From Romanomermis culicivorax (taxonomy: Eukaryota; Nematoda; Enoplea; Mermithida; Mermithidae): 64,000 nt of DNA. The stretch is taken from NCBI GenBank assembly GCA_963922205.1, contig CAWUHX010000007.1, positions 310,001 through 374,000 on the forward strand, in the 5' to 3' direction. Shown piece after piece: positions 2,094-35,818 of the stretch; position 1 is the stretch's first letter; each line of letters opens with the position of its first letter. The notes below the pieces were generated by a model, which did not search any database, was not told where the DNA came from, and saw only the letters and a program-made list of their open reading frames with translations. The translations under genes and the position numbers were made by a program.

Positions 2094-2120
2094 AATAGAT
2101 TATGGAATGAGCAACTCTAT

Positions 2121-3314
2121 ATGGCACCTCAACTGCCAGCACCTACCCAACAGCTGATGATCACAGCTCCCCCTCAAGGTCAAGATCAAATCAGTAACCC
2201 TAGCCCAAGTGTTCAAGCCGCTTCCAGTAGTCAACCAACCATGTTGAGTCAAATAGAGTTGGGATCTACTGGAAGCATAAATAGCACTGCCACTATGGGC
2301 CAAGGTGTTAATGAGATGAAATGGCCTGGAGTATTGAAGTGTGCCATGATGAAAGAAGATTATTCAAAGGTTACAAAAGCATTCAAGCATGGGATAATTC
2401 TGAATCAAGAGGAAAGATTAAGACTTTTTAAGTTTCCTCGAACTCTCCCTTTTCACATTAATGTGACAGTATGTAATACTAACACCAAGGCTTTAGTGGA
2501 TACTGGTGCTCAGTATTCAGTGATGTCATCAAATTTTCCTAAGGAAGCTTTTGGTGAAGAATATACTGGATACCCTGAGATATTAAAAGTCACTGTTGCT
2601 GATAGTGCAGTAGTACATGTACATGGTTACATTCAGTTCAAAATCCATTATGAATTTGGATTTTTTTTGGCGAAGGCCATAATAATTCCAAATGTGGAGG
2701 AAAATATTATAATTGTGAGGGATTTTTTAGCACATCGAGATGTTGGAGCAATGATAGATTTTGGTAAAGGTATCATGAAGCTTAATGGAGTTGAGAAAGC
2801 TATAAGTGTTGTACCTAAAGATCATGTGAGTCATATACAAGCTATTGATTGTATAGGGGAAGCACCTACAGTACATTCAATTCCTGAAGATGATCAATAT
2901 CCCAGGATATGCCAATTAGGTATAGTGGTTCCAGTGGTATCATGTACGAAAGTATACATACCACACAGAACTGATATGCTTATTAAGCCAAGATTATGGG
3001 AATGGTCTTCTAAAATAGATCTGAACTGTTTAGTCATAGAAGGGAATAAAGATGAAACAAAATTTAGAATGGATAGCACATTGATTGATGGTAAATGGGA
3101 AGATTTTGTCCTGATGATTTTGAATAATATTGGTTCAGGATGCCAATTGCAACCTTATCGGGTTGTAGGCTACTGTGACTCAATATTACAAGAAAGTTCA
3201 GGAGTATCAGGTGCACAAAGTACAAGTTGTGGGATGTTTAGCATTGAGGATAATTTTGAGGCTGAATATCTGTGCATGATGCATTGGCATTTAGGGAAGC
3301 GCTACATAAAATGA
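2121..3314 (+). pseudogene. Gypsy gag remnant plus aspartic protease
   Basis: This is an open frame of 397 codons. Residues 1-80 are Pro/Gln/Ser-rich, as in a gag C-terminus. Near residue 125 stands ALVDTGAQYSVMS, the DTG(A) catalytic motif of retropepsin-like aspartic proteases. Further on, the sequence ENIIIVRDFL resembles the flap and second half of the fold, with IIVRDFL in place of the usual ILGxDFL. The frame is open upstream too, across the hAT target site, so the ATG at 2121 is internal and not the true start. The frame ends where the linker to reverse transcriptase begins. Confidence 0.65.
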
Positions 3315-9021: not shown

Positions 9022-9030
9022 GCTTTATGT

Positions 9031-10420
9031 GGGTAGTACTAAAACCCGAATCGGGTCCACGGATCCGGATCCGGATCGGGTGTCTAAAACACGGATCACC
9101 ACGGATTGGCGGATTGGCGGATCCGTGGTTTGGCTCGCCAAACCATGGTTTTTGGTGTCTAAAACCCGGATCATCACGGATCACAGTGGATCAGTCCGGT
9201 GATCCGGATCCGTGGAAAATTCGTCTAAAACCCGGATTTTCATCACTGATCACCCCCCGCGGATCGGGTTTCTATGTATTAATTTTTGATCGGGAACCCG
9301 AATATTTGATCCAGATCATAATTTTTTGATCCGGATCAAAATTTTTGATCTAGTTCAAAATTTTTCGAATTTTTTCGGCGTGATGAGTATTTTCACGTTA
9401 CATAATCAGAATTTGATCCGGATCACTATTGTTAATCCGGATCAAATTTTTTTTTTTTCAAATTTTCACCTAGTGTAAAATTTTTCGTATTTTACCATCG
9501 TGATGAGTAAATTAACATCAAATAATCAGATTTTGATCCGGATCACTATTTTTTATCCGGATCAAAAATTTTTTTTTCAAATTTTCACCTAGAGTAAAAT
9601 TTTTCGTATTTTACCGTCGTGATGAGTAAATTAACGTCAAATAATCAGATTTTGATCCTGATCACGATTTTTGATCCGGATCAAATTTTTTTTCCAAATT
9701 TTCACTTAGAGTAAATTTTTTCGTATTTTCCTCTCGTGATGAGTAAATTAACGTCAGATTATCAGATTTTGATCTGGAACACGATTTTTTCTCAAATTTT
9801 TCACCTAGAGTAAAATTTTTCGGAAAAGAAAATTGTAAAACGATTGAACAACAACTGTGACATGATCCCGAATAACATCTAGAAGATGTTGAACATCTGA
9901 TAGAACAGTAGTTAAGCCGTTGATGTTGCTTTCTTTTTTCGTTATGGGATCAAAATCGGATCCGTACCAGATCTTTAGTCGGTTGGTTCAATTACATAAT
10001 GAAGTCTCTTTTGCAGGTGTATATAAAGAAGAGAAAAGCATTGAAATATCACATCGACGGGATGATATAGAATAAATGCATGTGTATTAGGATTTTTTTT
10101 ATTGCAATTATGTGTACGGATCTGGATCCATGTATAATGTTAGTTGACCAAACATTAACCTCTTTTATTGCAAATAACCGTGTTTACCCAGCCATATATG
10201 TTTACCCAGCCTTATATGTTTAGGCAGAAAATTTTTTTACAAATCTGGATCCGTGGAGTGGTTTATTTAAATTTTGTGTACGGATCTGTATCTTTATATG
10301 TGAATACGTAAAGTATTTTTATTGCACTTTTGTGTACTGATCTGGATCTGTGTATAACGGGTTTTATTGCAAATAACTCTATATGAAAAATTGTCGCATA
10401 GTTTTTCGTATTTTTCCTTC
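9031..10420 (+). repeat. left terminal inverted repeat of the MULE
   Basis: The first 300 bp (CGGATCC-rich, with the words GTCTAAAACCCGGATC and AAACCATGGTTTTTGG) pair with 30,340-30,645 in reverse orientation at high identity. The pairing goes on with indels through the GATCCGGATC units and the sequence around TTTACCCAGCC and ATATGTTTAGGC, down to about 10,400, opposite 28,900. The inner boundary is my estimate. Confidence 0.8.
9410..9830 (+). repeat. subterminal tandem units of about 119 bp (left)
   Basis: The unit contains GATCCGGATC, a T tract, CAAATTTTCACCTAGAGTAA and CGTGATGAGTAAATTAAC. Copies start near 9415, 9535, 9655 and 9770. The last is decayed. The right arm has the mirror array at 30,060-30,450, with GATCCGGATC at 30,185, 30,204, 30,303 and 30,322. 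Such arrays are plausible transposase-binding sites, but no binding evidence is visible. Confidence 0.75.
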
Positions 10421-12900: not shown

Positions 12901-13049
12901 AAACTTAATTTACTTGAAAGAAAAATTGCGTTGGACTAGTATGTACAAAAACTAATACAAAAAGTCGAATACAAACAAAAACGGCACCCGGAACACCGGT
13001 AGACTAGTAACAAAAACAATAACAAAAAAAATACGGAAAAATACAAAAA

Positions 13050-16000
13050 CTAATAGAATACGTCCATTGGGACCTGTATACCCCTTTGACGGGCTTTATT
13101 GGCCAATTCATCGGCCTCCTTCCTCGCCTGTTGATTTTTACTCATTCTGGCCCATTTGACCAATAGGTCCCTCAAGCAGTGGACGAAATAATTGTAAGCC
13201 GTTTCGAGGCTCCACTGTTCTTTCGGCTTGTAACCTCATGTCGTCGTCAAATATCCGCACATAAATTCGTACACAGTGGCGATTTGTCCGTCTTCGGTTA
13301 TCAATGGAATATTTTGTTTCTTATATTCTTCATAAATTGAATAGGGCCCTTTGGTGAATTGCCCCACCATCAATCGGAAAATATCGTGGCGTAAATGTAT
13401 ATGCCACACAACAATGTGTCGCGAAAGAACTGAAATAATTGATTATGAGTTTTTGGAATACCCGGATCATATTCTTACGGATCACCTAAATTTCAGACTC
13501 AAAAATGTCGAAAAAAGTTGGCCAACTTGTTCGACATACTCAACAGGGTCAGGGGAACACGTTAAAATCAAAATTTTGAAATTTTAAAATTTTTTAAATT
13601 TTTTAAAATTTTAAAAAAAATTTTAAAATTTTTTAAAATCATCATAGAAATGTCCGCCGAAAGTGTTTCAGGACTCAGAAAGGTTAACTTTGATTTTGAA
13701 GGACCTAATAAAAAGTATCTAACAGAAAACATATCCATAAAAAGGCAAATAAATACCTTTTATGCCGTGCGATACGGCGGTAGCTGTAAATCGTTCTTGA
13801 AAATTTGTGATTTCCAAGTTCGACAAGCGATGCCCTGATTAGCATCGGACGGGTTTATGAAACAATTTCTTGTTGCTGTTAAAATTGTAAGTGCAATTTA
13901 AATCGTATAACATGTCCCAATTAATACTACTTACAGAGTCGCATTTCGTCATAATTTTTCAAATTGTTCCTAATTAAGTTGACAACATGGTCATGGAGTG
14001 TCTGTTGTACATCTGACACCACAATTTCAGCCCAACCAGCAACATAGGTGGAAATGGGAGCCATGTACACGTGGCAATGATTTTGGACCAAAATAGGCAT
14101 AATGACGTGACGAAATTCGTTTACTAGATGTTCGCGTATGCCCACGGTCAGTGCATATGGTGTAGACATCATTTCTAAACCCAGAGATATAAATGCAACT
14201 TTGAAATTAGTATATGCTTAAAATAACTCAATCTGTCCTACTTCTAACCAACACCATTTCATGTTGGTCGCCTATGCAAGGCCAAGTGGCTTCAAATGGG
14301 AGCGAAATTTCATGGCCAATGGCATCGAGTATGCAGCGATCTTTAATACACCTAAACATCAAAATTTAGTGGAATAACTGCTCTAAAATGCACTACTAAA
14401 ATACTAAAATAGTATTAAGTTTATAAACGATCAATTTTTGCCTACCATTCTACCAATTTACGCCAATGTTGTAGGCCCTCCGTGTTGATTTGATCTTTGT
14501 TAACGATGAAACACTTTCCTGCTTCCAACGATGGAAACATAGTAGCCTTGCCAACAACAATAAGCAAGCATCGAGCACGGCTGATTGCAATGTTTAAACG
14601 TTTAAAGTTTTCCAAGAATCCGATGGTCAGATATTGATTTGATCGCACGATGTCGTAGATGACAATGTCGGATTCTTGCCCCTGTGAAAAACCCTAAAGT
14701 AATGTATTGTGAGTTAAGTACTAATCATAATTTACCACCTGAAACCCGTCTACTGTTCCAATTCGAATTTTACATAGATCTTCAACGAATAATTCGCTAC
14801 GTGAGTAGCTGTGATTCGGCAAATATGTGCCATTTAAAATGGCTTTGCATGCTTCCACTACTTTTGCTCGTAGTTGTTTAACCTGTGTGCTGTACGACGT
14901 TATAATAACTATGTTGTCGCAGCGCATTTTGTGTTGTCCAATTAAGGAAGCTGCCAGATTGATACAAGCAATTGCTTCGCCTATATTTTGCAGAGATCTT
15001 GAATTATCATTGGCGGATTCTTCTTTCGCTATATGAATGCAAGCTATGGGATGGCCAGTCATCATTGTCGGAAATGATTTCGGAAGTTGCAGCATGCATT
15101 GTTCTATAAGCACAAATGTTGAAATGATAAAATTTACTAGCACTCAAATCATTTTAAACATTGTCCCTATACTGAGTCACATTGTTACCTTTCGTGGTAC
15201 AATTTTGTACCCGATTTTCGTACGTCAAACTACTGACTATGCTTCCAATTGTCGGGTGCATTCGATATTGTTGGTTCAATAGTTTGTACGGCATTTTCAT
15301 GTTGAATAACCATTCAAACAGGGTATGACTGAATCCTTTTCGTTCTGCTCCTTTGGAAGTCACACACGGCCCTAATTGGCAAGGATCGCCTAAAGGGTGA
15401 CCTGAAAGAGCGAAAATGAAAGGAAAACATAGTATTTGGAAGGAAAATATTTAACAGTTCATTACTCTTCCACTTATGTGAAGTCTTGTAACTGGAATCA
15501 AGGTGGTTGGTTCAGTATCCTGGGCTGCTTCGTCGATCAATACCAGTTTGAAAAAGCATGGTTTTAAGCAGGCATCGGCTGCTCCATTGCAAGTCGTAAA
15601 GATTATATGATATTTGCACCTGAGTAGCTGTTTTTCGTATTTGAATAGGCACGCATCTGCTTTTTTGTCTTCGTCTTTTGTGAGTGGTGTCTGGTGTCGA
15701 ACACCATACTTCATTTCGATGCATTGCCTCCAGTTTGTTTTGCTGAAGTTAAAAAGATAGAAACAAGTACAATGTTAAACAGACGGAAACAAATTATGTA
15801 TTATAAAGTTTAGAAATCTTTACCAAAATGCCAAATTTTCCGGCTGCATTGCTACGGCTCGCATTGTGTAGGGTCGAATATCATCATCCGGCTGGTAGTA
15901 CTTAGCTCGGCTGGTAAGGCACATGATGTTATTTTGAACTCGTTCTTTTTCATTGCCTGCATTTTCAACACTTTTCAAAAGTGCTCATATGATATTGTCT

Positions 16001-17882
16001 ACGGCAGTGTTTGAAGGCGCCGTTATCAAAATTTTTTGACCCTGATCAAGGGCAAATGCTCGTCTGATAATACAAGTAGCTGTGGATGTTTTTCCCCTTC
16101 CAGGCGGGCCCTGTACAAACAAGTTAAGCGTAAGGGTTGAAAGATATAAATATGTTGATATTATTACCTGTATTATCGAAATAAAATTCATTTCTGAAAG
16201 GCGAACGGCCTCTTGTTGACTCCCCTTCAGACGGCAAGAGTCAAACAGGTCGTTGCGATTTGTGCCAATATCGTAATATTGACAAGTAGCTGTTGGATCA
16301 CGATGTTTTCCACGAATCAATAGATTGCGAATTGGTTCGCTAATCTGTGGTGCCGTTTCATTGAGAGGTCGGAGCCGCATTCTGGAGGCTTTGTCAATAT
16401 GCTTATTGCCCGTCTCTTTTTCTTTTAACTTTAACCGCCACATTGCGGTGTTGGAGTCCACCATGCTCAAGTGCTTTATGGTGTTGAGGCAGTTTAGTGT
16501 TCTAAATAAACGATGATGCTCAACCAAAAAAAAAATAGAAGGTCTAGGAACCCAAAAAATGAACATGAATGCTTTATACACATATACCTTTGCATCGCCG
16601 TATCATCTCCTTTCCAAAGGATGTTGCACATTTTGCGGCCCGGTTGGCAACTTAATTCGACAAATTTTCCTAGGGCATTGGCGGCATCTTGGTCCCATTC
16701 CAGGTCTTCATCTGCATCGTCTTGATCTTCAGCATCAGTATCAAATGGTGCATGTTTCGATGCCATCCACTTTTGCAACTTGTTTATGCGAAACTTGAGG
16801 ATGTTGACGCATAAATTGGCGCTTTTGTCTAAAAACAATTGCAAGTAATAAATTTTATTAAAATTTATTCTGCTCAATTACCCACTATCGGGTACATTGA
16901 GTAGCGTTGCGTCACAATACGCATCAGTTTCGTACCACTTGCCATCACCTCCAAGCTCCAAAATTGTCAATTGAATCTTTTGATTCGGACGAATGACTAA
17001 AGATATGTGTTGGATTTGAATTGCAATTAGGTCAAAATAACATATCAACTCACAATTGGGTAGCTGTCCGCTGAAGTTTAATTTTACTGTGGGGTATGAA
17101 GGCGGATCTAGCAAGTACTCGATTGACTGAAAGTGTTTGCTGAACGCCAACAACATTTTATCATTATCGTCGGCTTGTTGATTTATCCAGTGTAAAAAAG
17201 TATCGTGATATTTGTTCGGCGAATGATACCTAAAAGCAGTTGTAAATAATCTACAACAAAAAAGGGTTTTTTTTGGTGTATTTTGCGGAAAAAACTATGT
17301 GGAACTGTAGACTGACAAGATGCGTTTTGGTTGACTTAAAAAGGTAAAATTCTCAAAATTTTCTGCCACTTCGGGCCAGATTAGGGAACAAATTACACTT
17401 CATCACTCTGATTTCAATTTATTTCCAAACATTATGTATTCGTAGCCGTATTATAAGCTTTTTTAAAATTTTGGGGAATTTTTGGGAAATTAAGAAAAGG
17501 AGTTTGGGTCTCGTTCTCAAATGGAAAAAAAATAACGGAGGACTTACGCAGCTTTCTGACATGGTTTTTCAAATTCGTCTGATTCAACTGTCCGATCCTC
17601 AAAAGCGCCGAATCCAGTTTCGTAATCAAAACTGCATTTCACATTATTATGGTTGTATGACGAAGTATTCGGCGCAATTTCTTTTATTGGTTCTCGCGGT
17701 TCATGGAATTTTTCGTAGTGTACTTCTACGGCGTCTAATTCATCGAACTCGTCCTCAACTTCGGCGTTGATCGGAGGCTACAAATAATAATACAAGTTAG
17801 AATTATTACAAATGTGTGATATTGAAAGACCACTAACTTCAAACGGCGCAGGCTCATCAATATGTGAGTGCGAATAGGACAT
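13050..17882 (-). pseudogene. UPF1-like superfamily 1 helicase, MULE cargo, carrying two in-frame TGA
   Basis: This is a multi-exon minus-strand gene. It starts with ATG at 17882 (exon 17838-17882, MSYSHSHIDEPAPFE), followed by an acidic exon (17548-17777) and an exon from 17229. Helicase motifs follow in order: a SQQEAV Q-like motif near 16,220; Walker A GPPGRGKT near 16,105; DEAA (motif II) near 15,525; QQYRMHP near 15,265; GTVDGFQ near 14,750, then GQESDIVI in the next exon; and RLNIAISRAR near 14,580. These are UPF1/SMG-2 family signatures of ATP-driven RNA/DNA helicases. A C-terminal extension (14,172-13,935 and about 13,430-13,050) has no family I know. TGA codons break the frame at 15,985-15,987 and 13,236-13,238. 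Other introns are short, and no other stop interrupts the exons I traced. It may be dead, or read through at TGA. Confidence 0.75.
13440..13655 (+). repeat. single copy of the 311-bp array unit, inverted
   Basis: The segment with ATTTCAGACTCAAAAATGTC, TTGGCCAACTTGTTCGACAT and GGGTCAGGGGAACACG is the reverse complement of the units tandemly repeated at 25,224-26,440. It ends in a TTTTAAAATT run. It sits between helicase exons, so the same repeat invaded or was amplified in both gene sets. Confidence 0.75.
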
Positions 17883-18099
17883 AGTAGTTGTCGTGAAACA
17901 GGAAACATGAATGCTTGTTCAACAATAAATAAATAAAATGAGGCCTCACGTTTATCGTTGTAAACGTGAGTAGCTGTACAACAAGTTGCACAGAGCAGTA
18001 ATTCGCTTCTTCAACAATCAACGAAAGAAATAAATCGTAAAGCTTATCCTTGTAAACGTGACTATGTGAGTAGCTGTAACACGTTTTCACAACGTAGTC

Positions 18100-19280
18100 T
18101 AAAAAAAAGTTACGTAAATCCCCATATCCCCCTCCCCGTCATAATTAATGGTTACCTATTGTTCTGACAGTTACGATAAGCTATGACACTAGCTCTCGGC
18201 TTCCCGTTTTGCACAAGCGAAGCGATGATGATGGGCTGGGCGGGCGGCGTGAGACGGCGGGGCGGAGACGGTGTTTTTAAAACACTTTTTGCGAGTAAAT
18301 CGATATACAGTAAACTATTCATCCTATTCTTTAATTTTCAGGAATCCGATACAACTTGTTTGTCATAACACAAAATGCATATGATAGTTTTATGCAGTTT
18401 CGCGTTACCATGAACCAACAATGAAAAGTTTTAGTCACTTATAATGAATGTTGGTAAAATATTTCAAAACCGAGCAGTATTTTACTACTCAACTCCTCCA
18501 TTTGCCACTATTGCAAATTTAATTGCAACAGTGCCCAGCCGTGGGGACGTGGACCCTGAGGTTATGCACGGCCATGTGCAAAACTTAAAGAACTTAAAAA
18601 AACCGTGCAAAACATGAAACAAATATATAAAGAAAAATGTACACAACCATGACTAGAAAACATAGATGGATAGAGACAGAATTAGGAAATTAAAGAATTT
18701 TTTTGGGGTTTTTTAATTTTAAATTTTTTTTTGGGTTTTTTAAATTTTTTTTTTTTTAATTTTTGTTGGTTTTAGATTTTTTTTAATGAATGTGCGTAAT
18801 ATAAACCTAACAAAATTAAAAAAGCAATAAACAAAACATTAACAAATTGGGAAAAAAGTAAAACTTAATTTGACAAAAATTAACATAAAACAAAATATAA
18901 ACATAAAGAAATAAAATAAATGTTAACAAAACTTAAAATTGAAATTAACGTGCACCAATTAAAACATTGTAACATTACATATATACAAAGCGTGGTTTCT
19001 TCCAAAACAAGTGTTAATCTTAAATGTATCGATAAATTGAAATTGTTAAAACATTCTATTTTCTATGTTACGTTTCAAATTATAAAATTATTCACTTATG
19101 TTTTGGGTTAAATTTGTACAACAGCAGTAAACTTTTGAGCATACTAACCTAAGTAGCATTTGGGAAAAACCACATCAAATACATAGTGACTAGAAGTAAA
19201 CAATGAACACATGCACACACAATCACAATAAAATGAAAAACTCACAGTACTTACGGAACACAATAACAAACATTACTCTT
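18100..19280. other. AT-rich spacer between the minus-strand MULE genes
   Basis: No coding region is convincing here. T-tracts dominate 18,690-18,790 and A-rich sequence dominates 18,800-18,920. It probably contains the helicase promoter, upstream of 17,882, where two exact GTGAGTAGCTGT motifs lie (17,966 and 18,066). Confidence 0.4.
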
Positions 19281-19288
19281 CATTAAAA

Positions 19289-20098
19289 TTAAAAATTTAA
19301 ACTAGTATTGAAGGAGGACCTACGCGGGCAAGGAACCCAACCATTAGAATTCCACCAATGTACTCTGTTATATAAACTTACCCCAATTCCTCGAATTTGG
19401 CCAATGTTTATGTCCGCATCAACATCCATGTTTTCGAATATAGGTGGCGGATCTTCTATTTCTGCAAAGCCTTGGCCGATTCCATTCATAATTACATCGT
19501 TGAACTGATCAACATTAACATGATTAAGTTCATTGATCAGTAGATTATCTGGATTTTCTTCGGGGCGTGGAGGATTTGCACCACATCTCATGTTCCGACG
19601 CCTAACCCCAATTTGTCTATTGTTGCGTCGCCAACGTTGTTGTCCTCGTCGCGCTGCACATTCATTGGAAAAAAAATTAACGTAGAGTGCATTAACTTTC
19701 AATGTATCTGCTTTATACAGCATAATTATCTTTCTGTTTACATAATTATCTTTCTTTTTAATATTTTTCAAATGATTATGATTAAAATGTGGAATCTATT
19801 TACCTCTTCGGGGTGCTCTTATTAGAATCAATGGCAAATCATCATCGTTAATTTCTGGAATCAGATTAGCCATATCAATGACACGATCTTCATTGCGGTT
19901 GAGTAGCTGTTCTCCTTGCGGGGGTGTATATTCGCATTGGTTAATTTCCGGAATCAGATTAGCCATATCAATGACACGATCTTCATTGCCGTTGAGTAGC
20001 TGTCTGGCCCGTCTACGCAAAGGACGTGGATGACGCCGGGCATTGTCCACTCTTCTTCGATGTCTTCCAATGCTTATTGATACATGAATGCGAGGCAT
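19289..20098 (-). CDS. Arg-rich MULE protein with internal duplication
   Basis: The ATG at 20098 opens an exon (19804-20098) coding for MPRIHVSISIGRHRRR and an Arg-rich stretch, then two near-identical 31-residue units around NEDRVIDMANLIPEIN. A GT donor at 19803-19802 and an AG acceptor next to 19651 join it in phase to a second exon (19382-19651), which continues RRGQQRWRRNNRQ and then becomes acidic. The end is uncertain: either the frame runs to a stop at about 19,289 or there is another splice at 19,381. Basic N-terminal and acidic C-terminal halves suggest a nucleic-acid or chromatin partner, but I recognise no family. It is transcribed divergently from the transposase. Confidence 0.5.
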
Positions 20099-20970
20099 TT
20101 CGAGTGAAAAAATGTTTGTTGAGTAATTCTTCTTTCAAGCAAGAATGATACACTATTCTATTAAGGTGCATCTTAGGGGCAAAGTCCATGTTTGTGCATA
20201 AGGGTAAACAGTCATTTCCTACTGTAATGTTTACTGGTCACTCATTCCATGTGGACAATGGACAGGAAGCAAAAATTGATTATGTGTTGCGCAATGAGGA
20301 ATGTTACGAATCTTGGGTTGGATTGATAGGTTACGTATAGAATTGTACATAGGAAAACAATTTTGCAAGCTTGTGTTGTACCAGGAGAAAAATCTGGGCC
20401 TGAAAACATAAAGAAGATAAAATGTGCATATATTGTTTATGTGAATTAAATATTGTGACTGTTAGATACAATTGTGTTCATGTTTGTACACATATTACAT
20501 TTCAAATTGCAGGTAGCTGTTTACTGTAACATTGTTATTCGTGCCTCATTTCTTTATCGCGCAACGCAACGCAGATAAATATTTTTGCCTGAGTCTTGCG
20601 TTTCAAAGAAACAATGAATGACGCCTAAAAGTAAGATTGACAACTAATATTACTTTTTGTGTTAGCCTAACGTATTGAGTAATTTTAGTTATTTATTTTT
20701 CGTATTTTTTGCTTTAGCAAACGACGAATGAAATTGTATTTTTTCGCAATTACCTAATTGGATCCACAGCTACTCACCGTCTACGGTAGAAAATAAAAAT
20801 TCAATGATTTACCACTTTTACATCAGCTACTCACACGTCACCAAATAATTCTTTGCCGATATAGACCACGACGTAGCATTTCGATTCGAATTTTTAGTAA
20901 ATTCGCCGTCAGCTACTCACAAAGTCAAAAATAATTGACATTCACAAAGTCGCTTACAGCTACTCAACTA
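20099..20970. promoter_or_regulatory. divergent intergenic region and motif switch point
   Basis: This 872-bp stretch lies between the ATGs of the minus-strand Arg-rich gene (20098) and the plus-strand transposase gene (20971), so both promoters should be here. The ACAGCTAC-type motif points left at 20,511-20,520. It points right at 20,766, 20,823, 20,909 and 20,956, four copies within 202 bp in the presumed 5' leader of the transposase. No TATA box is convincing. Confidence 0.55.
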
Positions 20971-23937
20971 ATGTATTCGGACGACAACCAATACGACTCC
21001 GACGATGACTTCAAGCAAACTCCTGGTCTACCGTCGCAAGTTGATCAACCTAAAGATGATCTGCCGAAGATCGAATCAAATGCAAATGCAACATCTGCTG
21101 AAACGGAAGATACGCCAGTTACTTCAGGATGTTCCATTCCCGTTACGACCAACAGACAATGCAGATTAGAACCTAAGGATTTGGATAAGTTAATCGGTAA
21201 GCGAATTGTTTATTTTTGTGAAACTTACATCCAAAATTAATTACCAGTTGTTTGTATGTTTTCCAACTGTAACTAATATTTCAGCTTCAGCTAATGCAGA
21301 ACGATTAATCGACAAACCCCCACCATATCCAAAAGGAGGAGACGTTTACTTGTTTCCATACTCCAGCAAAGAAGATAGTAATATACAGGTCACATTATTT
21401 ATGTTAACCTTATATAATATTTGTACTTCCTCATAGAATCCTTTCTCTGCGATTGTTATAATTGGATAAACGATGGAGTTCAAAAACTTCTGAGGTCTAA
21501 TCCAAAGTATTCAGCTACTCACTACGCGGTCGCCTGCGATCGAAATTCCGAATCAAAGAAGAAATTAAGAAGACTAGAATATCCGCAGATAAATCCACCG
21601 GCGGACAAACATCTATACGTCCGAGTAGTCCACTACTTTGGTGATGAAAAATATGGCGTCAAGCGAAAGCATTATAATTCCAACAGTGACAAAGTCTTTA
21701 TTCGAAATGCTCCAGTAATCAAGAAACTGGTAGAAGTTGAACTTAAACGAGACCTGAACCTTACCGCTTCTCAATTGTACGAAAAAATTAGAATAGACAA
21801 TCCTGCTCCACCGGGCCTTGAAGCTGTCGTACATGGCAGAGATCGAAAACAAGTAAATATAATTAAATAGATATCTCAAGTAGTACAATTTTTATAACAG
21901 TCATATTTTTAAATTATAAATATGCTACAAACTAAAATTACTCTTTTAGATATCCAACTTCAAATACAGCATTCAAAATAAATTTCGGCCGTCAAAGGAC
22001 GCCATATACAATTTAAACACATTCATTCATGAGAATGAACACCAATTTATAATGAGCATAGAACAAACGGCTCACGACTTTTTGGTTTCATGTATGTTGC
22101 CGGACATGCCCGAAATAATTAACGAATTAATAACGGAATATCCAAACAAGCCATTTGTCGTTCTTTACGACACGACGTTTGAATTGGGCGATTTTTATGC
22201 GTCAGCAGCACTTTATCGCCAAAAAAGCCTTATTGGCCAACTGGTTTTCCCACTCGGCGTACTTATACACGAGAAAAAATTCAAAGAAAACCATTGTGGC
22301 TCTATACAAAGAATTTTTCGACAGCTACCCATTCGTATAACGAATGGGAACATCAAAACCGTTATAATTACCGATCGCGAATTTGATTTCCGAAATTTGA
22401 CGCCAAACACGGTGCACGTTTATTGCTGGTGACATTTAGTCGAAAACGTTACCCAGAAAATTACCGAATTATGTCCCAAAAAAAACGACTTGCGTGTTGC
22501 CATAGTGAACAATTTATATTCGATTCTAAAATCTGACTCCGAGAATCTGGCAGCATTAAAAGCTGAAGAACTAAGAGAAAAATGGCCCGAAAAATTCAAA
22601 CAATATTACTTTTCGTCCATTGTGCCAGCTGTTCGAACCAGTGGAAAATGGGTGTTGGAACCAATCGGGTTGTACTCCAGCTTCTCAGGTATGTTAATTT
22701 AAACACACCTACATATCAAGGTTTTTTGATATTATTTCAAATATTAACAAATGAAATGTTTCCATACGTCAAAAGCCTATAGTTTTAATTAATTAAAGTT
22801 AATAATATATAATTTTAATTATTTAATTTAAAAATATATTTTTTAAATAATTAATTAAAATATATATTTTTTAATTAATAATTTATAGTTTTAATTAATT
22901 AATTTAAATACATATTATTTTAGGTGTAACGACCAACGCCAGCGAAAGTTTCAACAAAGTCCTGAAGACCTGGACTTCTTGGAGAGAAATGCCCATCGAC
23001 GTGGCCGTTCTCGCTTTCTACACCCTATTTCGTTATTACAACATCAATTATGACCATGCCAAATATGGAGTTGGGGATTTCAAACTCAACACCGACATTC
23101 CAATGAGGCCTGCCAACAAAATGCCAAAAAGAGATATAATCAAACCGGGAAAGGTTTTACAATACTGTCGATTCAGCCAAGTATGCGTACAACTACCGCA
23201 GATGGAAGAGCCAAAATCAGATCGCCGTGGAGATGCTGATTCAAATTTCCGAAATTGGTCAATTTTTGGTCGAAAATGAAAAGGTGGTCCACGACACCCT
23301 ATCAAGAGTAATAATTCATAATGTAGTTATTGACTCTGTTGTCTATATTTTTTAATTAATTTGCAAATTTTTTTTAGTGCTTCAACGTAACTGAAAACGG
23401 CAAGGTGTATCTAGTTCGATTCAACCCTACCAGCTGCGGTTGCGGCGACAAGGCATGCACCCACTTGATAGCCGCTCGTTTGTCCTGCAATTTACCAGTT
23501 ACCGTAAAGGCCAACAGAAACATCACTACTTTGCGATGTGCAGACAAACGAAAAATAAGCAAATCAAAGTTAGGACGCAAACGTCCTTGCAAGGACGACT
23601 TTACGAACATAAAGCCGAAAGTTACCAATATTGAATTTGACGACGAGGATTCCGAAACTCAAGTAGAAACAGCTACTTGTTATAACGATGTCCAAATCAG
23701 GAAGCCTGCAAACAAACAAGTAGAAACAGCTACTTGTGTTGACGACATCAAAATTTGGAAGCCTGCGACAAAAGATTTGGATTTCGACACTCAAGTAGAT
23801 ACAGCTACTTGTGACTACGATTCCCAAAGTGATGCCGTTGAAAAAAATAACAGGGATTTTACAAATTGCCGCGAGCATCCAATGGAAACAACTAATTGTG
23901 CCTATGATGCCGGTCGATTATATGTAAAACATCTCGA
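20971..23937 (+). pseudogene. MULE transposase with DDE triad and SWIM finger (one TGA, one frameshift)
   Basis: Exons with matching GT/AG phases are 20971-21196, 21285-21377, 21437-21852, 21950-22688, 22924-23307 and 23378-23937. The N-terminal part has GGDVYLFPYSS and FLCDCYNWINDG, a zinc-finger-like region. The MULE core shows VVLYDTTFELGDFYAS (first catalytic D), VIITDREFDF (second D) and GVTTNASESFNKVL (E). The last exon holds a SWIM finger, SCGCGDKACTHLIAAR (CxC..CxH), then a tail with three VETATC-like repeats. An in-frame TGA lies at 22430-22432, and a one-base frameshift occurs near 23,150-23,170. Small exons at about 24,005-24,133 and 24,226-24,320 may continue the transcript. It would cut and join the element ends. 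This copy looks recently disabled. Confidence 0.82.
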
Positions 23938-24375
23938 GTAAGTGGTTAAAATATATTTGTTATCATTGTGGTTGAAATTCAAATATACATATTATTCAAT
24001 TCAGAGGCATAGAAGAAGAATGTGAATCATTATTCGATAACATTGGTAATGCGTCTCCGCCCAATTTCAACTCACAGGCTACAGTTTTGGTTGATTCACA
24101 ATCGCAAACCACTGAAGCTCTAAATACAAAAAGGTGAACATTTAACAAGTACGATCTGCACTTATATCTTTTAATAAACTTACATATTCCGATCAATTTT
24201 ATTCACATTAACATTTTCTATTTAAGAGAGGCTACAATTATAATTGATTCGCAAATTCCAACCTGCGATCAAATTGAAGACACGGATTTAATACCCGAAA
24301 TGCGACCAAAACCAGTAATATTTAAAAAAAATTTGAATTATTTTTTAGTTGAACTAATTCAATTTATGCATTCAG

Positions 24376-27002
24376 ATGGACTTATCAACGCTAATTAGTA
24401 ACAACCTCTCGAATTTAGAACCCGAAGAGGATGAGGAAATAATCGCCCGCCTTAGCGATGTCGACGACGATGCTTCATTGAACGTATCATTAAAATCGAA
24501 AGATGCGAAGCCGACATTCTGTGAATGTCAAGTGGATAAAACTGTTAATTGCATGCTTGAATGCGATGCCCAAGTTGACGAAAATTGCCGAATGTGGTAC
24601 CATCCGGACTGCGAAAATATTTCCAATATTTATTTTTCGCTTAAAAACAATCGAAGAAAACCTGAAAACAAATTTTATTGGGAATGCGCGCACTGCTTCG
24701 TTCTTCAATACTTCCGAAATTCGCCGGCTGTGCAAAAATATCAACTACAGAATACTTGTACGATCGATCCAGGCCTTACAACTTTCTATATTAAGGCAAA
24801 GTTTTGCCCAAAATTCCTGCGACAGGTAATTTAAATGCTGTATTACATAACATTCATGAATTAATTTCAAACATTACAGCTACCCATCGAATTGTCAATG
24901 TTAAAAAAATCATTGACATTGGCACTTAAACACCAATTCGGGGAAGCTGCATTGGAGTGGGTGAATTACATACGCTTCCAGAAGAATGCGGCAGAAGAAA
25001 AAAATATAACCAAAGACGGCTCGGGCACAAAGATCGATTTATTTGGTGCCGCTGACGAGTTCTTCTTGAGCCATATCAGCACCATGTACACTCTCCAACG
25101 ATGCAGCGAGTGTTCCGTAGCCAAATGCCAAATGCGGATTAACACCCAAGAAATAACCGGCTATGCACTGTAAGTCATTTGTTAATTAATCCCTTGAGGT
25201 TTTTGAGATACTTGTTAAAAGTTCTACAATTTTTTTTTAAAATGTGTTTCCATACCCAATTCGAAGTGAAAAACTTGTTTTCCTACGTTTCTGAGTACGC
25301 CCGACATTCCTATGACGATTTTAAAAAAATTTAAAAATTTTTTTAAAATTTTAAAAAATTTAGAAAAATTTTTTAATTTCAAAATTTTGATTTTAACGTG
25401 TTCCCCTGACCCTGTTGAGTATGTCGAACAAGTTGGCCAACTTTTTTCGACATTTTTGAGTCTGAAATTTAGGTGATCCATGAGAATATGATCCGGGTTT
25501 TAGACGTGCATGTCTAAAACCCAGATCACTCGGCCACAGCCGGATCACTCAATTTTTGAAGTGAAAAATTGTGTTCTGGGTTCGGGAAACTTGTTTTCCT
25601 ACGTTTCTGAATACGGCGGACATTCCTAGGACGATTTTAAAAAAATTTAAAAGTTTTTTAAAAATTTTAAAAAATTTAAAAAAATTTTAAATTTCAAAAT
25701 TTTGATTTTAACGTGTTCCCCTGACCCTGTTGCCTATGTCGAACAAGTTGGCCAACTTTTTTCGACATTTTTGAGTCTGAAATTTAGGTGATCCGTCAGA
25801 ATATGATCCGGGTTTTAGACGTGCAGTCTAAAACCCGGATCACTCGGCCACGGATCACTCGATTTTTGAAGTGAAAAATTGTGTTCTGGGTTCGGGAAAC
25901 TTGTTTTCCTACGTTTCTGAATACGGCGGACATTCCTATGACGATTTTAAAGAAATTTAAAAATTTTTTAAAAATTTTAAAAAATTTTAAAAAATTTTAA
26001 AATTTCAAAATTTTGATTTTAACGTGTTCCCCTGACCCTGTTGAGTATGTCGAACAAGTTGGCCAACTTTTTTCGACATTTTTGAGTCTGAAATTTAGGT
26101 GATCCGTGAGAATATGATCCCGGTTTTAGACGTGCACGTCTAAAACCCGGATCACTCGGCCACGGATCACTCAATTTTTGAAGTGAAAAATTGTGTTCTG
26201 GGTTCGGGAAACTTGTTTTCCTACGTTTCTGAGTACGCCGGACATTTCTATGACAAAATAAAAAAAATTTAAAATTTTTTTAAAAATTTTAAAAAATTTG
26301 AAAAAATTTTAAAATTTCAAAATTTTGATTTTAACGTGTTCCCCTGACCCTGTTGAGTATGTTGAACAAGTCGGCCAACTTTTTTCGACAATTTTGAGTC
26401 TGAAATTTAGGTGATCCGTAGCGAGCCGATATGGATCACTCTGTTTTAAAGTAAAAAGTTGCATTTGAGGTTTGCGAAAACTGTTTTTCCTCTCACGTTA
26501 GGGTGTAAAGGACTTTACCGTTTATGTTATAGTACCAAAAAAGATAAAACGATCGAAAATTTGGCGAATAAACATCTTCGCAAAATTAAGCAAATTTGTG
26601 GACAAAGACATGAGAACGGGTCAACAAAATGTCCGTGTATTCGAACTTTTTTTGCGCCTACCTTTACGATGCAACAGCTACTCATGTTGCCCCGAATTTA
26701 TTTGTGCAACGCACCATTCAATGACGTTTTTGCATTGCCGACGGAGTTGACGTTTAATCGACGACGGTAAAAACAAACTGGAGCTGTGTTTTGTTTTTTT
26801 TAACTCTACATTTTTCAGATATCATCTGTTGTCGGTTATCGTTTATAACTCCAACCACTTTGCATGCATCCTCCTTCGACCGGGGACTTCATCAAAAGAA
26901 TATTTCCTTTGCGACGATTTGCAGGAAAGAATGGTACGAGTAGCAGAAGGTAGTGGAAACGGGCATCTTTTACAATATGCCTTGTATTTTCTAGATTGTT
27001 AA
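24376..27002 (+). CDS. PHD-finger protein with USP-like C-terminal half, MULE cargo
   Basis: Directly after an AG acceptor, ATG at 24376 opens MDLSTLISNNLSN. A PHD finger follows at about 24,518-24,700 (CECQ..., MLECD, MWYHPDC, FYWECAHC: C4HC3 spacing). The exon from 24880 continues into LFGAADEFFLSHI and CSECSVAKC, which recall the finger region of ubiquitin-specific proteases. After the 311-bp array, an exon at about 26,500-26,768 and a last exon to the stop at 27000-27002 give YHLLSVIVYNSNHFACIL and YFLCDDLQ, like the USP His box and DD motif. A catalytic Cys box is not clear. Phases do not match across the array (2 before, 1 after), so an exon may be missing. PHD fingers read histone tails, so a chromatin role is an inference. 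Confidence 0.6.
25224..26440 (-). repeat. tandem array, four units of about 311 bp with palindromic junctions
   Basis: Each unit has GTGTTCTGGGTTCGGGAAAC, CTACGTTTCTGA, a TTTTAAAAATTT run, AACGTGTTCCCCTGACCC and TTGGCCAACTTTTTTCGACA. At the junctions near 25,491-25,528, 25,805-25,841 and 26,116-26,153, GATCCGGGTTTTAGAC meets its own reverse complement around GTGCAC. This is the same GTCTAAAACCCGGATC word that fills the MULE ends. The array lies in an intron of, or interrupts, the PHD/USP-like gene. Confidence 0.8.
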
Positions 27003-27640
27003 ATATTTTTAATTTTGTTTTGTTAATTTTTCTCTCTTTTTGTTGTGTTTTATTTACCGGTTTTACCTCGTGCAATTTTTTAAAATTTTATCTCGCTTGT
27101 TATTGCTGGTTTAGATTTTATCGCTTTATAAATTTTATCTCATCTGTTACTGATTGTTAGAATTCTATCGTTATTGTTCGTTTCAATTTTAGCGCCTTAA
27201 ATTTTATCTCATCCGTTATTGATTGTTAAAATTTTATTGCTTTATAAATTTTATGCATACTGTAAATAATTGTTAAATTGTTATTGTATTTGTGATTGTA
27301 TTTGTATAGTATCTCCGTATACATTTTTCCGTTTTTTATTTTTTTATTATTTTTATCGTTTTTCTTTTTTTTAGTTTTTTTTTGTTTTTTTTAATTACTT
27401 GTTTTTATTTTTTTATGGTTTTTTTATTACTTTTTTTGGTTATTTTATTACCTTTTTTGTTTATTGGTTATTCTTTTTTTTGTTGTTTTCTTTTTTTCTG
27501 TTACTGTACATAGTAGTTTGCTTAAATGTAAATAAAATTTGGTACATAATTGGTACAAAATAGGAATCTTGTGATTGATTGAAAAATGGATAATCCGTCT
27601 CTATTCGAACTCGTTTTATGAGGTTTCTGACTATATGCAT
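27003..27640. other. T-rich non-coding stretch after the PHD/USP-like gene
   Basis: TTTTATC(T/G)C words recur from 27,080 to 27,260, and long T tracts interrupted by single bases fill 27,320-27,500. Nothing coding is visible. It marks the start of the right arm of the MULE. Confidence 0.5.
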
Positions 27641-28879: not shown

Positions 28880-30645
28880 AATGGCAAACATTTTATTTGC
28901 ACAACATTATAGACAGATCCAGTTGCGCAATAAAAATACTTTACGTATTCACATATAAAGATACAGATCCGTACACAAAATTTAAATAAACCACTCCACG
29001 GATGCAGATTCGTAAAAAAATTTGCTGCCTAAACATATAAGGCTGGGTAAACATATATAGCTGGGAAAACATATATGGCTGGGTAAACACGGTTAATTGC
29101 AATAAAAGTGATTAATGTTTGCTCAACTAGCATTATACAGGGATACAGATAAGTACACAAAATTGCAATAAAAAGACTACTAATACAATTTATTCTCTGT
29201 CAAACCGGTTATACATGGATACAGATCTGTACAAACACTACTAATACACATGCATTTATTATAAAAAACCCTTCTAAAGTAATAAAAACGCTACTAATAC
29301 ACATGCATTTATTCTCTGTCATCCCGTCGACGTGATGTTTCAATGCTTTTCTCTTCTTTATATACACCTGCAAAATTGACTTTGTTATGTAATTGAACCA
29401 ACCGAATAATAATCCCATAGGGATCCAATTGTGCCCGACCTACGGAACAACAGCATAAATGGTTTAACAACTGTTCTATCAGATGCTGAATGGAATCGGA
29501 AATTCACTTCACGGTTGTTCAATCGTTTTACAAAATTTCAAAATGTTTTTTATTTTTTTCCATGTAACGGGAAAATACGAAAAATTTAAATTCGACAAAG
29601 ATCGAAAATCGTGATCCGGAACAAAATCTTTAACCCTAGGTGGAAATTTGAAATAAATTTTGATGCGGATCAAATATAGTGATCCAGATCAAAATCTGTT
29701 TGTGATGTTAATTTACTCATCATGACGAAAAAATATGAAACATTTTACTCCAGGTTGGAATTTCTGATTATGTTTTTTTTTCATATACACGGATACAGAT
29801 CTGTACACATAATTGCAATAAAAAATATACTAATACACATGCATGTTTCAATGCTTTTCTCTTCTTTATATACACCTGCAAAAGAGACCTCATTATGTAA
29901 TTGAATCAACCGACTAAAGATCCCGTAGGGATCCAATTTTAATCCCATTACTAAGCGAGAGGTCAATATTAATGGCTTAACTACCGTTCTATCAGATGTT
30001 CAACATCTTATAGATGTTGTTCAGGATGATTCATGGTTGTGGTTCACTCGTTTTACAATTTACGTTTTACACGGGTCAAAAATTTTGATATGGATCGAAA
30101 TCTGATTATGTGACGTTAATTTACTCATCACGACGGTAAAATACGAACAATTTTACTCTAAGTGAAAATTTGAAAAAAAATTTTGATCCGGATCAAAAAT
30201 AGTGATCCGGATCAAAATCTGATTATTTGACGTTAATTTACTCATCACGACGGTAAAATACGAAAAATTTTACTCTAGGTGAAAATTTGAAAAAAAAATT
30301 TTGATCCGGATCAAAAATAGTGATCCGGATCAAATTCTGATTATGTAACGTGAAAATACTCATCACGACGAAAAAATTCGAAAAATTTTGAACTAGATCA
30401 AAAATTTTGATCCGGATCAAAATATCATGATCCGGATCAAATATTCGGGTTCCCGATCAAAAATTAATACATAGAAACCCGATCCGTATGGGGGTGATCC
30501 GTGATGATCCGGGTTTTAGACACCAAAAACCATGGTTTAGCGAGCCAAACCCCCTATCCGCCGATCCGTGGTGATCTGGGTTTTAGACACCCGATCCGGA
30601 TCCGGATCCGGATCCGTGGACCCGATCCGGGTTTTAGTACTACCC
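28880..30645 (-). repeat. right terminal inverted repeat of the MULE
   Basis: This is the reverse-complement partner of the left arm, read from 30,645 inward. It differs by indels and has an extra stretch of the TATACAC/ATGCATTTATT type near 29,200-29,900. Long open frames across the extreme ends are translations of the inverted repeat and are not genes. Confidence 0.8.
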
Positions 30646-30654
30646 GCTTTATGT

Positions 30655-33516: not shown

Positions 33517-33643
33517 GTTAACCACTGGAACTCCCTGCCCCATTAAGGTGCATCCTATATCCGGGCATCCCTAAGCAGTAATCGCATACAGTCGTAATCG
33601 TTTCCTACAGTAGGACAGACATTCGTAAAAGCACAAACTGAAA

Positions 33644-35818
33644 ATGACCCTCCATACAAGAGACCACTTAGGAGAAATTGTAAGAGAGCAAATCAACGAA
33701 CTTTTTGCAGAAAATTTTCGAACTTTGCACACACAATTGAGCAAAAACACTATGAATCCCACCCTGATAGACGATTTGAGAACGGCCAACATCCGTAACA
33801 GTATGACAAACAATTTTTATGCAAAACCTACAGTATTTACGGGAGGAGTAACCCAACATTTCGGCCAATGGAGCAAGCGACTAGAACAGTTCATGATACT
33901 ACAAGGCATGAAAGATACTGACGAGCAACTCAAATTAGCATGTTTTGAAATTCATTTGGGTGGTGCAGCATTAGCAAAATTCAAAAGTTTAGAAAATTCT
34001 GAAAACCCACCCCAAACGTATGAACAGTATAAAACTGCATTACAAGCATGTTTCCCCGACCACAGAGACACAGATTTACACCAACATTTTTTGCATGAAC
34101 GGAAACAAAAAAGTTCGGAAACTGTCATTGAATTTTTGTTTGACCTCGAGCATCTAGCGACCCTCGCCTACCCCAATTTCAATTCAGAGGCACGAGAAAT
34201 GATAATCAAACCCCTTTTCATGGAAGGCATGCAGACCGAAATTAGAGAGGCACTCAAGTACAAACGATTCACCTCCCTAGCAGACATGTCTGATGAAGCA
34301 GCTTATGTTGAACAACAAATTTTCAGAAACAGATTGAAATCTAGCCCCATACCCCTCATATCCCCTGAATCGGAACCCATTCTTTCATTAGGCAATTACA
34401 CTGAACAGCAAGGAATCCTACATAAATTAGAACAAGTCATGGAGTTGCAATTGCAAATACTGCGAAATTCTCAAACCCAACCCCAGCATGATAACAGTAA
34501 TTTGAGACAGATCACATGTTTTCAATGCAATCAAGTCGGGCATTTCGCCAGAAATTGTAATTCACCAGGTACTCAAAAGTCATGCCAAATTTGCTTTAGG
34601 AGTAATCACATGACTCGAGACTGTAAAAGCAGATGCATTCACTGTTCTCAGACTGGTCACAGATCCAGCCATTGCATATCACAAAGCTACTCAAATGTAG
34701 AATGTTTTCTTTGTAAGCAAAAAGGTCACACGAGTAGATATTGCCCCAACCAAATGACCCCTAACATCCAAAATCACATTGAAGAGAGACTACCCCCACC
34801 ACAAATGAACATTGATGTCCCAGTCATGTACTCCACATTGCCCACTGTCCAGCATCAACCTCAACATGCTTTAAATACAGTTCTGCCCAGCAGTCATAAG
34901 CAGTTTGACCCCCAGTATGTCCTTGACATACCCCTTCATGATACAAGCAGCACTTCAAAAATTGCATCACCAAAAAGCAGTGACATGTTGAAATCCAAAC
35001 TCCCCCAGCCAAAAATTGCACAGAAACATAAACATCCTGAAACCAGTGAGACGTCCAAAACTGAACCAGCATACAAAAAGGAACGCCCAATGTTTTCACA
35101 ATTGCAGGGCCTTCCCACAGACCCCAACACATTCCCCAGGCGAAAAACTTCTCTTCCTACCCCCAAAGCACAAGAAAATCTTAAAATTCGTTTTGCAGCT
35201 AGCATTCCCCAGAGTAAAAGTAGTGGTATCTGTAGTTCTAGCTCAAACGACGTCAGCAAGCCCCAAATCTCCCATCCTGATACATGCATCGCCCCTGTTT
35301 CTTGTCCCCTCCCAGCGAAAAATTCAACCGCCCAATCTCATTTTCCCACCCAAAACAAACAGAAACGTCTTCATACATTCCCATGGGTAAAAGGCAAAGT
35401 AGAATCGACCAAAACTGACAGGATTGAAACGGAAAAAGCTGAGTTAATCAATTTCTTATCCAAATATCAGCCCCTTCACACTGAGTCAAAAACACATGTG
35501 AGTCACAGGCCACTTGTCTCCCACAGCATTGGTACAAGTAATTATAAACACAGACACAGACCCCTTTTTCGAAAACCACCAAAAGCAAAACAAAGCATCA
35601 AACACAAAGTTGAGCAATTTAAGAAAGCTGATGTTATCAATCAAAGCACTTCCCCTTCATGTAAAACTGGCGGGTCAATCGTTCAGACAAATTCCCCAAT
35701 TCCCCCTATCCCTCCAAGTCTTCGACCCCAAAACCCTCTCTCCCTCGACCCCCTTGAACGAGGACGTTCAACTCTGGAAGGAGGGAAATGTAACGTACCT
35801 GCTAAAGCAGTACTGTAA
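33644..35818 (+). CDS. Gag polyprotein with four CCHC zinc knuckles
   Basis: An intact frame of 724 aa runs from a true ATG. Residues of about 60-235 form a retrotransposon gag domain (for example FGQWSKRLEQFM, LGGAALAKF and EAREMIIKPLFMEGM). Four CCHC knuckles follow: CFQCNQVGHFARNC, CQICFRSNHMTRDC, CIHCSQTGHRSSHC and CFLCKQKGHTSRYC. The long C-terminal third is Pro/Ser/Lys-rich. Gag builds the particle and binds the RNA. The stop codon lies 30 bp inside the 3' LTR, so the last nine residues are encoded by U3. No pol frame overlaps or follows. Confidence 0.93.
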   Translation: MTLHTRDHLGEIVREQINELFAENFRTLHTQLSKNTMNPTLIDDLRTANIRNSMTNNFYAKPTVFTGGVTQHFGQWSKRLEQFMILQGMKDTDEQLKLACFEIHLGGAALAKFKSLENSENPPQTYEQYKTALQACFPDHRDTDLHQHFLHERKQKSSETVIEFLFDLEHLATLAYPNFNSEAREMIIKPLFMEGMQTEIREALKYKRFTSLADMSDEAAYVEQQIFRNRLKSSPIPLISPESEPILSLGNYTEQQGILHKLEQVMELQLQILRNSQTQPQHDNSNLRQITCFQCNQVGHFARNCNSPGTQKSCQICFRSNHMTRDCKSRCIHCSQTGHRSSHCISQSYSNVECFLCKQKGHTSRYCPNQMTPNIQNHIEERLPPPQMNIDVPVMYSTLPTVQHQPQHALNTVLPSSHKQFDPQYVLDIPLHDTSSTSKIASPKSSDMLKSKLPQPKIAQKHKHPETSETSKTEPAYKKERPMFSQLQGLPTDPNTFPRRKTSLPTPKAQENLKIRFAASIPQSKSSGICSSSSNDVSKPQISHPDTCIAPVSCPLPAKNSTAQSHFPTQNKQKRLHTFPWVKGKVESTKTDRIETEKAELINFLSKYQPLHTESKTHVSHRPLVSHSIGTSNYKHRHRPLFRKPPKAKQSIKHKVEQFKKADVINQSTSPSCKTGGSIVQTNSPIPPIPPSLRPQNPLSLDPLERGRSTLEGGKCNVPAKAVL
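35776..35788 (+). other. polypurine tract
   Basis: GGAAGGAGGGAAA ends directly at the first base of the 3' LTR, the normal primer site for plus-strand synthesis. It is translated as part of gag. Confidence 0.85.

Follow-up and report, generated by a model that had tools for sequence, protein, structure and literature searches.

How could a transposon come to carry one short word 22 times along its genes, each time reading in the direction of transcription, and what might read it? The question is raised by 64,000 nucleotides of the nematode Romanomermis culicivorax (GenBank assembly GCA_963922205.1, contig CAWUHX010000007.1, positions 310,001 to 374,000 of the forward strand), here called the window, in which positions are counted from the first letter. 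The window holds an element of 21,615 bp (9031-30645) which, judged by its sequence, is a transposon resembling the Mutator-like elements (MULEs) and large for its kind, with a helicase gene and a small gene read leftward and a transposase gene read rightward. An earlier note on this DNA had described in it a polar 12-mer that flips at the divergent promoter. The explanation that we favour, tentatively and without calling it probable, is that this 12-mer is a lineage-specific, sense-oriented self tag on the transcripts of the element, read as RNA by a co-evolving factor that the element itself probably encodes.

The core CAGCTAC occurs 25 times in the window, against 2.26 times on average in shuffled sequences, and none of 100 shuffles reaches 25. 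Of these occurrences 22 fall in the gene-bearing part (13,776-26,685), where the count and polarity reported in the earlier note hold: the 11 copies at or left of 20,520 all lie on the minus strand, the 11 at or right of 20,766 all lie on the plus strand, and neither half has an exact match on its other strand. An order-2 Markov model of the sense strands of 13,000-27,000 predicts 0.39 copies, and CAGCTAC comes first among the over-represented 7-mers of this region, with AGCTACT and ACAGCTA also at the top. The strict part of the 12-mer is shorter than had been described, comprising its first eight letters, ACAGCTAC, whereas the last four vary as YYRN; the letter preceding CAGCTAC is A in 19 copies and T in three (TCAGCTAC). 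The three TCAGCTA copies given before are true ones, but the fourth occurrence of TCAGCTA (21,287, TCAGCTAA) does not belong to the motif. Allowing one mismatch to ACAGCTAC lowers the excess: the window then has 53 sites, and shuffled sequences average 24.7. Apart from the three TCAGCTAC copies, the relaxed match adds six sense and three antisense sites in the gene-bearing part. ACAACTAC is read at three sense sites (14,870; 17,884; 23,189).

For the placement of the copies, gene models were derived from open frames and GT-AG sites. In these models 15 copies fall in predicted coding exons and seven in predicted leaders, which accounts for all 22, with the copy at 24,876 spanning a splice acceptor, in agreement with the distribution over exons, leaders and an acceptor that had been proposed. 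The introns (3.75 kb in all), the intergenic region at 18,171-19,381 and the arms of the element contain no complete copy. With copies distributed uniformly within gene spans, such a placement has P 0.0004, or P 0.005 when the inserted minisatellite (about 1.35 kb) is excluded. The coding copies occupy all three codon phases, as expected from a nucleotide-level signal that follows transcription, and consecutive copies in the spliced models are separated by 47 to 1,043 bases. They share no common distance to splice sites, which, together with the seven copies in leaders, makes a plain splicing enhancer a poor fit; a replication-polarity signal, also suggested before, finds nothing in its favour here.

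The motif is present with its polarity retained in 38 sibling loci. Conservation was compared at the 13 of 22 sites that the sibling loci cover, that is, all except eight helicase-gene sites and 26,674, in two alignments of 9 and 29 distinct sibling sequences with one site present in both. Mean identity at each of the 12 motif positions ranges from 0.968 to 0.997, compared with 0.83 just before the motif and with 0.92, then 0.82, at the two positions that follow it. In every one of 14 rows the 12 bp are more identical than the 57 bases that flank them. Third codon positions reach 0.990 inside motifs (18 positions) against 0.865 outside (829 positions) in the larger set, with an indicative resampling P = 0.008, and 0.972 inside (8) against 0.912 outside (476) in the smaller set. 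The copies in predicted leaders are conserved equally.

Further evidence comes from relatives in the same genome, recognized by the SWIM-like exon at 33-43% identity and by matches to the transposase exon. The 12 more distant loci fetched, of more places listed, belong either to a second lineage (L041-L044, L046, L047, L049-L051) or to older members of the first (L045, L048, L052), and none of them is a third lineage with a third word. Helicase and transposase are found in both lineages. In L041, L042 and L043 the over-represented 8-mers are headed by words from ACAGATACCTC, and L044 holds one exact ACAGATACCTC and seven sites with up to one mismatch; the other five loci of this lineage (L046, L047, L049-L051) have decayed. 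If up to one mismatch is allowed, the right halves of the nine lineage-2 loci contain 46 sense sites of ACAGATACCTC and the left halves 11, and no site is discordant. CAGCTAC is not a regular feature of these loci: an antisense one is shared by L043, L046, L050 and L051, and single others occur in L044, L049 and L050. L045, a 64% relative of lineage 1, has the CAGCTAC form and the lineage-1 polarity. Three sites are homologous between the lineages and carry in each case the word of their own lineage. One is the beginning of an exon; the others are the VQLP/SQIP site, which reads ACAACTAC in the window and ACAGCTACCC in L045, and the QQLLMLP/QQIPLMLP site. Near its start the transposase gene bears four copies in the window; L041 has three there, the third possibly being coding. 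The outermost left and right motifs of L041 are only about 0.8 kb apart, and the small gene, which encodes an arginine-rich protein, therefore appears to be absent there.

At one splice junction the two lineages differ in a further way. In lineage 1 (24,876 in the window) the word is complete both in the genome, where it reads TTACAG/CTACCC across the acceptor, and after splicing: the preceding exon ends GACAG in the window and ACAG in 28 of 30 rows, the remainder being one unrelated sequence and one gap. In lineage 2 the genome has T across the acceptor at the place of the initial A of the word, while the preceding exon ends GAACAG in all seven copies, so that the full word (ACAG/ATACCTC) would exist only in spliced RNA. 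The ATACCTC after the junction is exact in five of the seven (L042, L043, L044, L047 and L051, the acceptor of L051 being damaged) and has one change each in L041 and L050.

Both words were also counted in the whole genome (359 Mb). ACAGCTACTCAC occurs 445 times against 36 times reversed, and ACAGATACCTC 361 times against 69; for each word the first 100 places were listed. Among these places both words together form 19 clusters of at least three exact hits, of which 16 show a single outward flip, two are one-sided and one represents two adjacent elements. Singletons of ACAGCTACTCAC account for 51 of its first 100 places. Of the 16 singletons fetched, 12 belong to one retroelement family with one exact ACAGCTACTCAC each (L053, L055-L061, L063, L065, L067, L068; an integrase domain was scanned in L056), one is a copy of the element (L062), one (L054) lies beside an open reading frame with a zinc knuckle and two could be assigned to nothing. 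A general abundance of the word in the host, which would have spoken against its being special to the element, is thus not supported. The same word stands at near-equal coordinates in two contigs (G000:C21:576769 and G000:C23:576770), perhaps duplicate haplotypes in the assembly. L069 (G000:C117) contains a COX1-like gene with a 519-codon frame and 11 TGA codons. It is open under the mitochondrial codes 4, 5, 9, 13 and 14, in which TGA is Trp, whereas the vertebrate code would put 23 stops into it; together with the animal-like appearance of its protein this is compatible with an invertebrate host.

A binding site for an element-linked factor, one of several functions considered in the earlier note, fits these results best because the word has changed in concert in the second lineage. 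A nucleotide-level word that is kept in sense and in predicted exons and changes in this way calls for a specific, co-evolving reader acting in trans, the restriction to sense strands and exons favours RNA over DNA as the form read, and a reader encoded by the element would explain the switch better than a host factor. The proteins of a transposon are synthesized in the cytoplasm and have no easy means of distinguishing the copy that encodes them from relatives or defective copies. In the proposed mechanism a trans-acting factor, probably element-encoded, would bind the tag along the RNA of the element, and this binding would single out the element's own transcripts, for example so that they are protected, exported or translated. 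The tag would change along with its reader, giving rise to two lineages in one genome with different tags (ACAGCTACYYRN and ACAGATACCTC).

Several points weigh against the self tag. Transcription and the outward direction coincide everywhere, and polarity alone therefore cannot separate an RNA from a DNA orientation. The leader starts, on which seven of the 22 copies depend, are assumed, and the gene models are themselves predictions. Predicted RNA accessibility does not single out the motif sites as unpaired (0.484 against 0.482), and no RNA-binding domain was identified. The splice-junction argument for a reading of mature RNA is of moderate weight, since exon ends in CAG are common. With respect to conservation, flank positions range from 0.75 to 0.99, and the 29 sibling rows include many that hardly differ from one another, which makes the P values indicative only. 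In lineage 2, four of nine loci (L043, L046, L050, L051) share an antisense ACAGCTAC in a transposase stretch, followed by varying letters and TATA, although this is not that lineage's own word. Finally, a deletion derivative, L070 (G000:C303:227051-233750), with about 11.9 kb between its ends and without the stretch matching 15,944-27,511 of the window, retains four motifs because part of the helicase gene is retained.

The main rival, which we consider rather unlikely, is a DNA-level system like that of VANC, in which an element protein would bind the 12-mer in double-stranded element DNA and keep its own copies open and active, motif and protein co-evolving. VANC systems of Arabidopsis VANDAL MULEs counteract silencing through an encoded VANC protein that binds the motif. 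Their motifs, according to PMC5735166 and PMC10398659, are family-specific and share one orientation; they have evolved through the formation of tandem repeats, differ between related families and are mainly non-coding. The likeness is considerable: here too a MULE-like element carries many copies of a short, family-special motif in one orientation within each half, the word switches between lineages as VANC motifs differ between families together with the encoded factor, and part of the spread is by local duplication, namely a 93-bp repeat in the small gene (within 19796-20098), which carries the motif twice, and three copies in one transposase exon. Apart from these two places, most copies stand in unrelated contexts, in the exons and leaders predicted for three genes, in three codon phases and always in sense; the non-coding tandem arrays that define VANC targets are not found, 15 of 22 copies being predicted to be coding and none wholly intronic, intergenic or terminal. 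Tandem duplication leaves the one-way orientation unexplained, as most copies lie in unrelated sequence. In addition, Pfam scans of the main open stretches revealed no VANC-like domain, and VANC acts on DNA in Arabidopsis whereas the present host is an invertebrate. In the literature searched, which was mainly open-access, no comparable exonic tag nearer than VANC was found.

That the element exploits the site of a host RNA-binding protein, be it a splicing enhancer or a site for control of stability or translation, appears improbable. The motif is short, sense-only and exonic in the models, as such a site would be, and its TACTCA part presumably resembles a STAR/GLD-1 site. Neither ACAGATACCTC nor the TTGT and CCAT variants contain this part, however. 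With a fixed host factor one would not expect homologous sites within one host to differ in their words, and the lack of a common splice-site distance does not suit such a factor either. Base-pairing with a guide RNA is more improbable by far. The variation of window copies at positions 9-11, confined to Y, Y and R, could reflect tolerance of G-U wobble, with which the three ACAACTAC sites are also compatible, but position 12 varies freely and the gene-bearing part holds no exact antisense copy. Chance, shared ancestry or protein-level constraint, to which the locally duplicated copies and the retroelement family that has spread its one chance copy might be ascribed, is rejected on account of the excess over expectation, the three codon phases, the conservation of third positions and, equally, of predicted leaders, and the switch at homologous sites.

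Other known systems are more distant from the self tag. En/Spm and similar plant DNA transposons have subterminal repeats that bind transposase; the word studied here is likewise short, repeated in a DNA transposon and mirrored between its halves, but none of its 22 copies is subterminal, all being confined to the gene-bearing interior. Retroelements have RNA elements to which an encoded protein binds, such as the Rev response element with Rev, and these rest on a structured RNA. The proposed self tag would share with them an encoded protein acting on the element's own RNA, and differs from them in being a linear word that recurs along each transcript without unusual predicted structure.

That the element is of MULE type, as had been suggested, agrees with its 9-bp target site duplication and inverted ends: a gapped comparison of both sides shows GCTTTATGT flanking it and both ends beginning GGGTAGTACTAAAACC, inverted. 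The same features link it to Rehavkus and to other metazoan MULE groups (Phantom, Ghost and Spectre). In the tables of PMC6446971 a PHD finger and a minisatellite are listed for Rehavkus and SWIM for Ghost, and the word helicase is absent from its main text; it is likewise absent from the accessible text of a 2026 arthropod survey, which gives full lengths of 1.4-10.0 kb (PMC13359780). At 21.6 kb and with a helicase, the present element differs from the MULEs surveyed there. Its arms are repeat-rich, Rfam at gathering scores gave nothing in the window, and no relative was confirmed among viral contigs. The coordinates are collected in the table.

Table. Motif copies, ends and genes of the element (window positions).
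Feature	Position	Strand	Remark
Motif	13776..13787	-	predicted coding exon, phase uncertain in window copy
Motif	14801..14812	-	predicted coding exon
Motif	15620..15631	-	predicted coding exon
Motif	16072..16083	-	predicted coding exon
Motif	16282..16293	-	predicted coding exon
Motif	17056..17067	-	predicted coding exon
Motif	17966..17977	-	predicted helicase leader
Motif	18066..18077	-	predicted helicase leader
Motif	19899..19910	-	small gene, predicted coding
Motif	19992..20003	-	small gene, predicted coding
Motif	20509..20520	-	predicted leader, small gene
Motif	20766..20777	+	predicted transposase leader
Motif	20823..20834	+	predicted transposase leader
Motif	20909..20920	+	predicted transposase leader
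Motif	20956..20967	+	predicted transposase leader, just before ATG
Motif	21511..21522	+	predicted coding
Motif	22321..22332	+	predicted coding
Degenerate site ACAACTAC	23189..23196	+	homologous place reads ACAGCTACCC in L045, ACAGATACCTC in lineage 2
Motif	23669..23680	+	predicted coding
Motif	23726..23737	+	predicted coding
Motif	23801..23812	+	predicted coding
Motif across splice acceptor	24876..24887	+	ACAG is the intron end, then CTACCCAT
Motif	26674..26685	+	predicted coding; homologous lineage-2 place reads ACAGATACCTC
Left target site duplication, 9 bp, GCTTTATGT	9022..9030	.	
Left terminal inverted repeat, begins GGGTAGTACTAAAACCCG	9031..9395	+	minimum extent; inverted repeats continue inward
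Right terminal inverted repeat	30351..30645	-	minimum extent
Right target site duplication, 9 bp, GCTTTATGT	30646..30654	.	
Helicase gene, UPF1/IGHMBP2-like SF1	13050..18170	-	14 predicted exons, leader start assumed
Small gene, arginine-rich protein	19382..20560	-	first ATG about 20,098; 2 predicted exons; leader start assumed
Transposase gene	20600..27002	+	ATG 20,971; 12 predicted exons; leader start assumed

The window copy of the element is decayed, with an in-frame stop in the sixth exon of the helicase gene and in-frame stops in the transposase gene. Pfam recognizes AAA_11 (1.3e-11 and 1.4e-11) and AAA_12 (2.3e-11 and 2.5e-9) in four helicase exon stretches, and the nearest matches of the helicase are SMUBP-2 (1.2e-5), then NAM7 and UPF1. 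In the rightward gene, MULE-like transposase and SWIM-like stretches are recognized by eye, a PHD match stays below threshold and Pfam assigned no family to the transposase exons scanned. The stretches LYDTTF, ITDREFD and CW-HL, MULE-like by eye only, are common to most of six sequences from the two lineages. A CG-1-like N-terminus and a USP-like C-terminus of the transposase, both suspected by eye, were dropped, as Pfam gave nothing for either and PDB sequences nothing for the former.

Some further features of the window were recorded. The three motif copies that share one transposase exon (at 23655-23815) each follow a CAAGTAG, with which they form CAAGTAG-N6-CTACTTG inverted repeats; among siblings this exon has an open frame of varying length, and L045 has two motif copies there. 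A 312-bp unit is present in 3.7 copies in an intron of the transposase gene (25271-26419), and a single inverted copy of about 200 bp lies in an intron of the helicase gene (13457-13659). Retroelement open reading frames are found at 33629-35818 (zinc knuckle and gag, 729 aa) and 2013-3314 (weak aspartic protease, 433 aa).

Should the DNA-level rival be true, VANC-like systems would extend to an animal and to exons. If the 12-mer is instead a self tag, it is possible, though we hold this with less assurance than the explanation for the present element, that MULE-type DNA transposons can label their mRNAs with a linear password, dispersed over the exons and read as RNA by a co-evolving, element-encoded factor. 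Related lineages in one genome would change their passwords at one site after another, even preserving the whole word over an exon junction, and each lineage would in this way serve only its own transcripts and resist parasitism or host control. The element of R. culicivorax would then preserve a rare trace of self-recognition at the transcript level, in the form of a lineage-specific tag that lies within coding sequence and has changed in concert, and its two lineages would offer two natural specificities within one genome, ready to compare.

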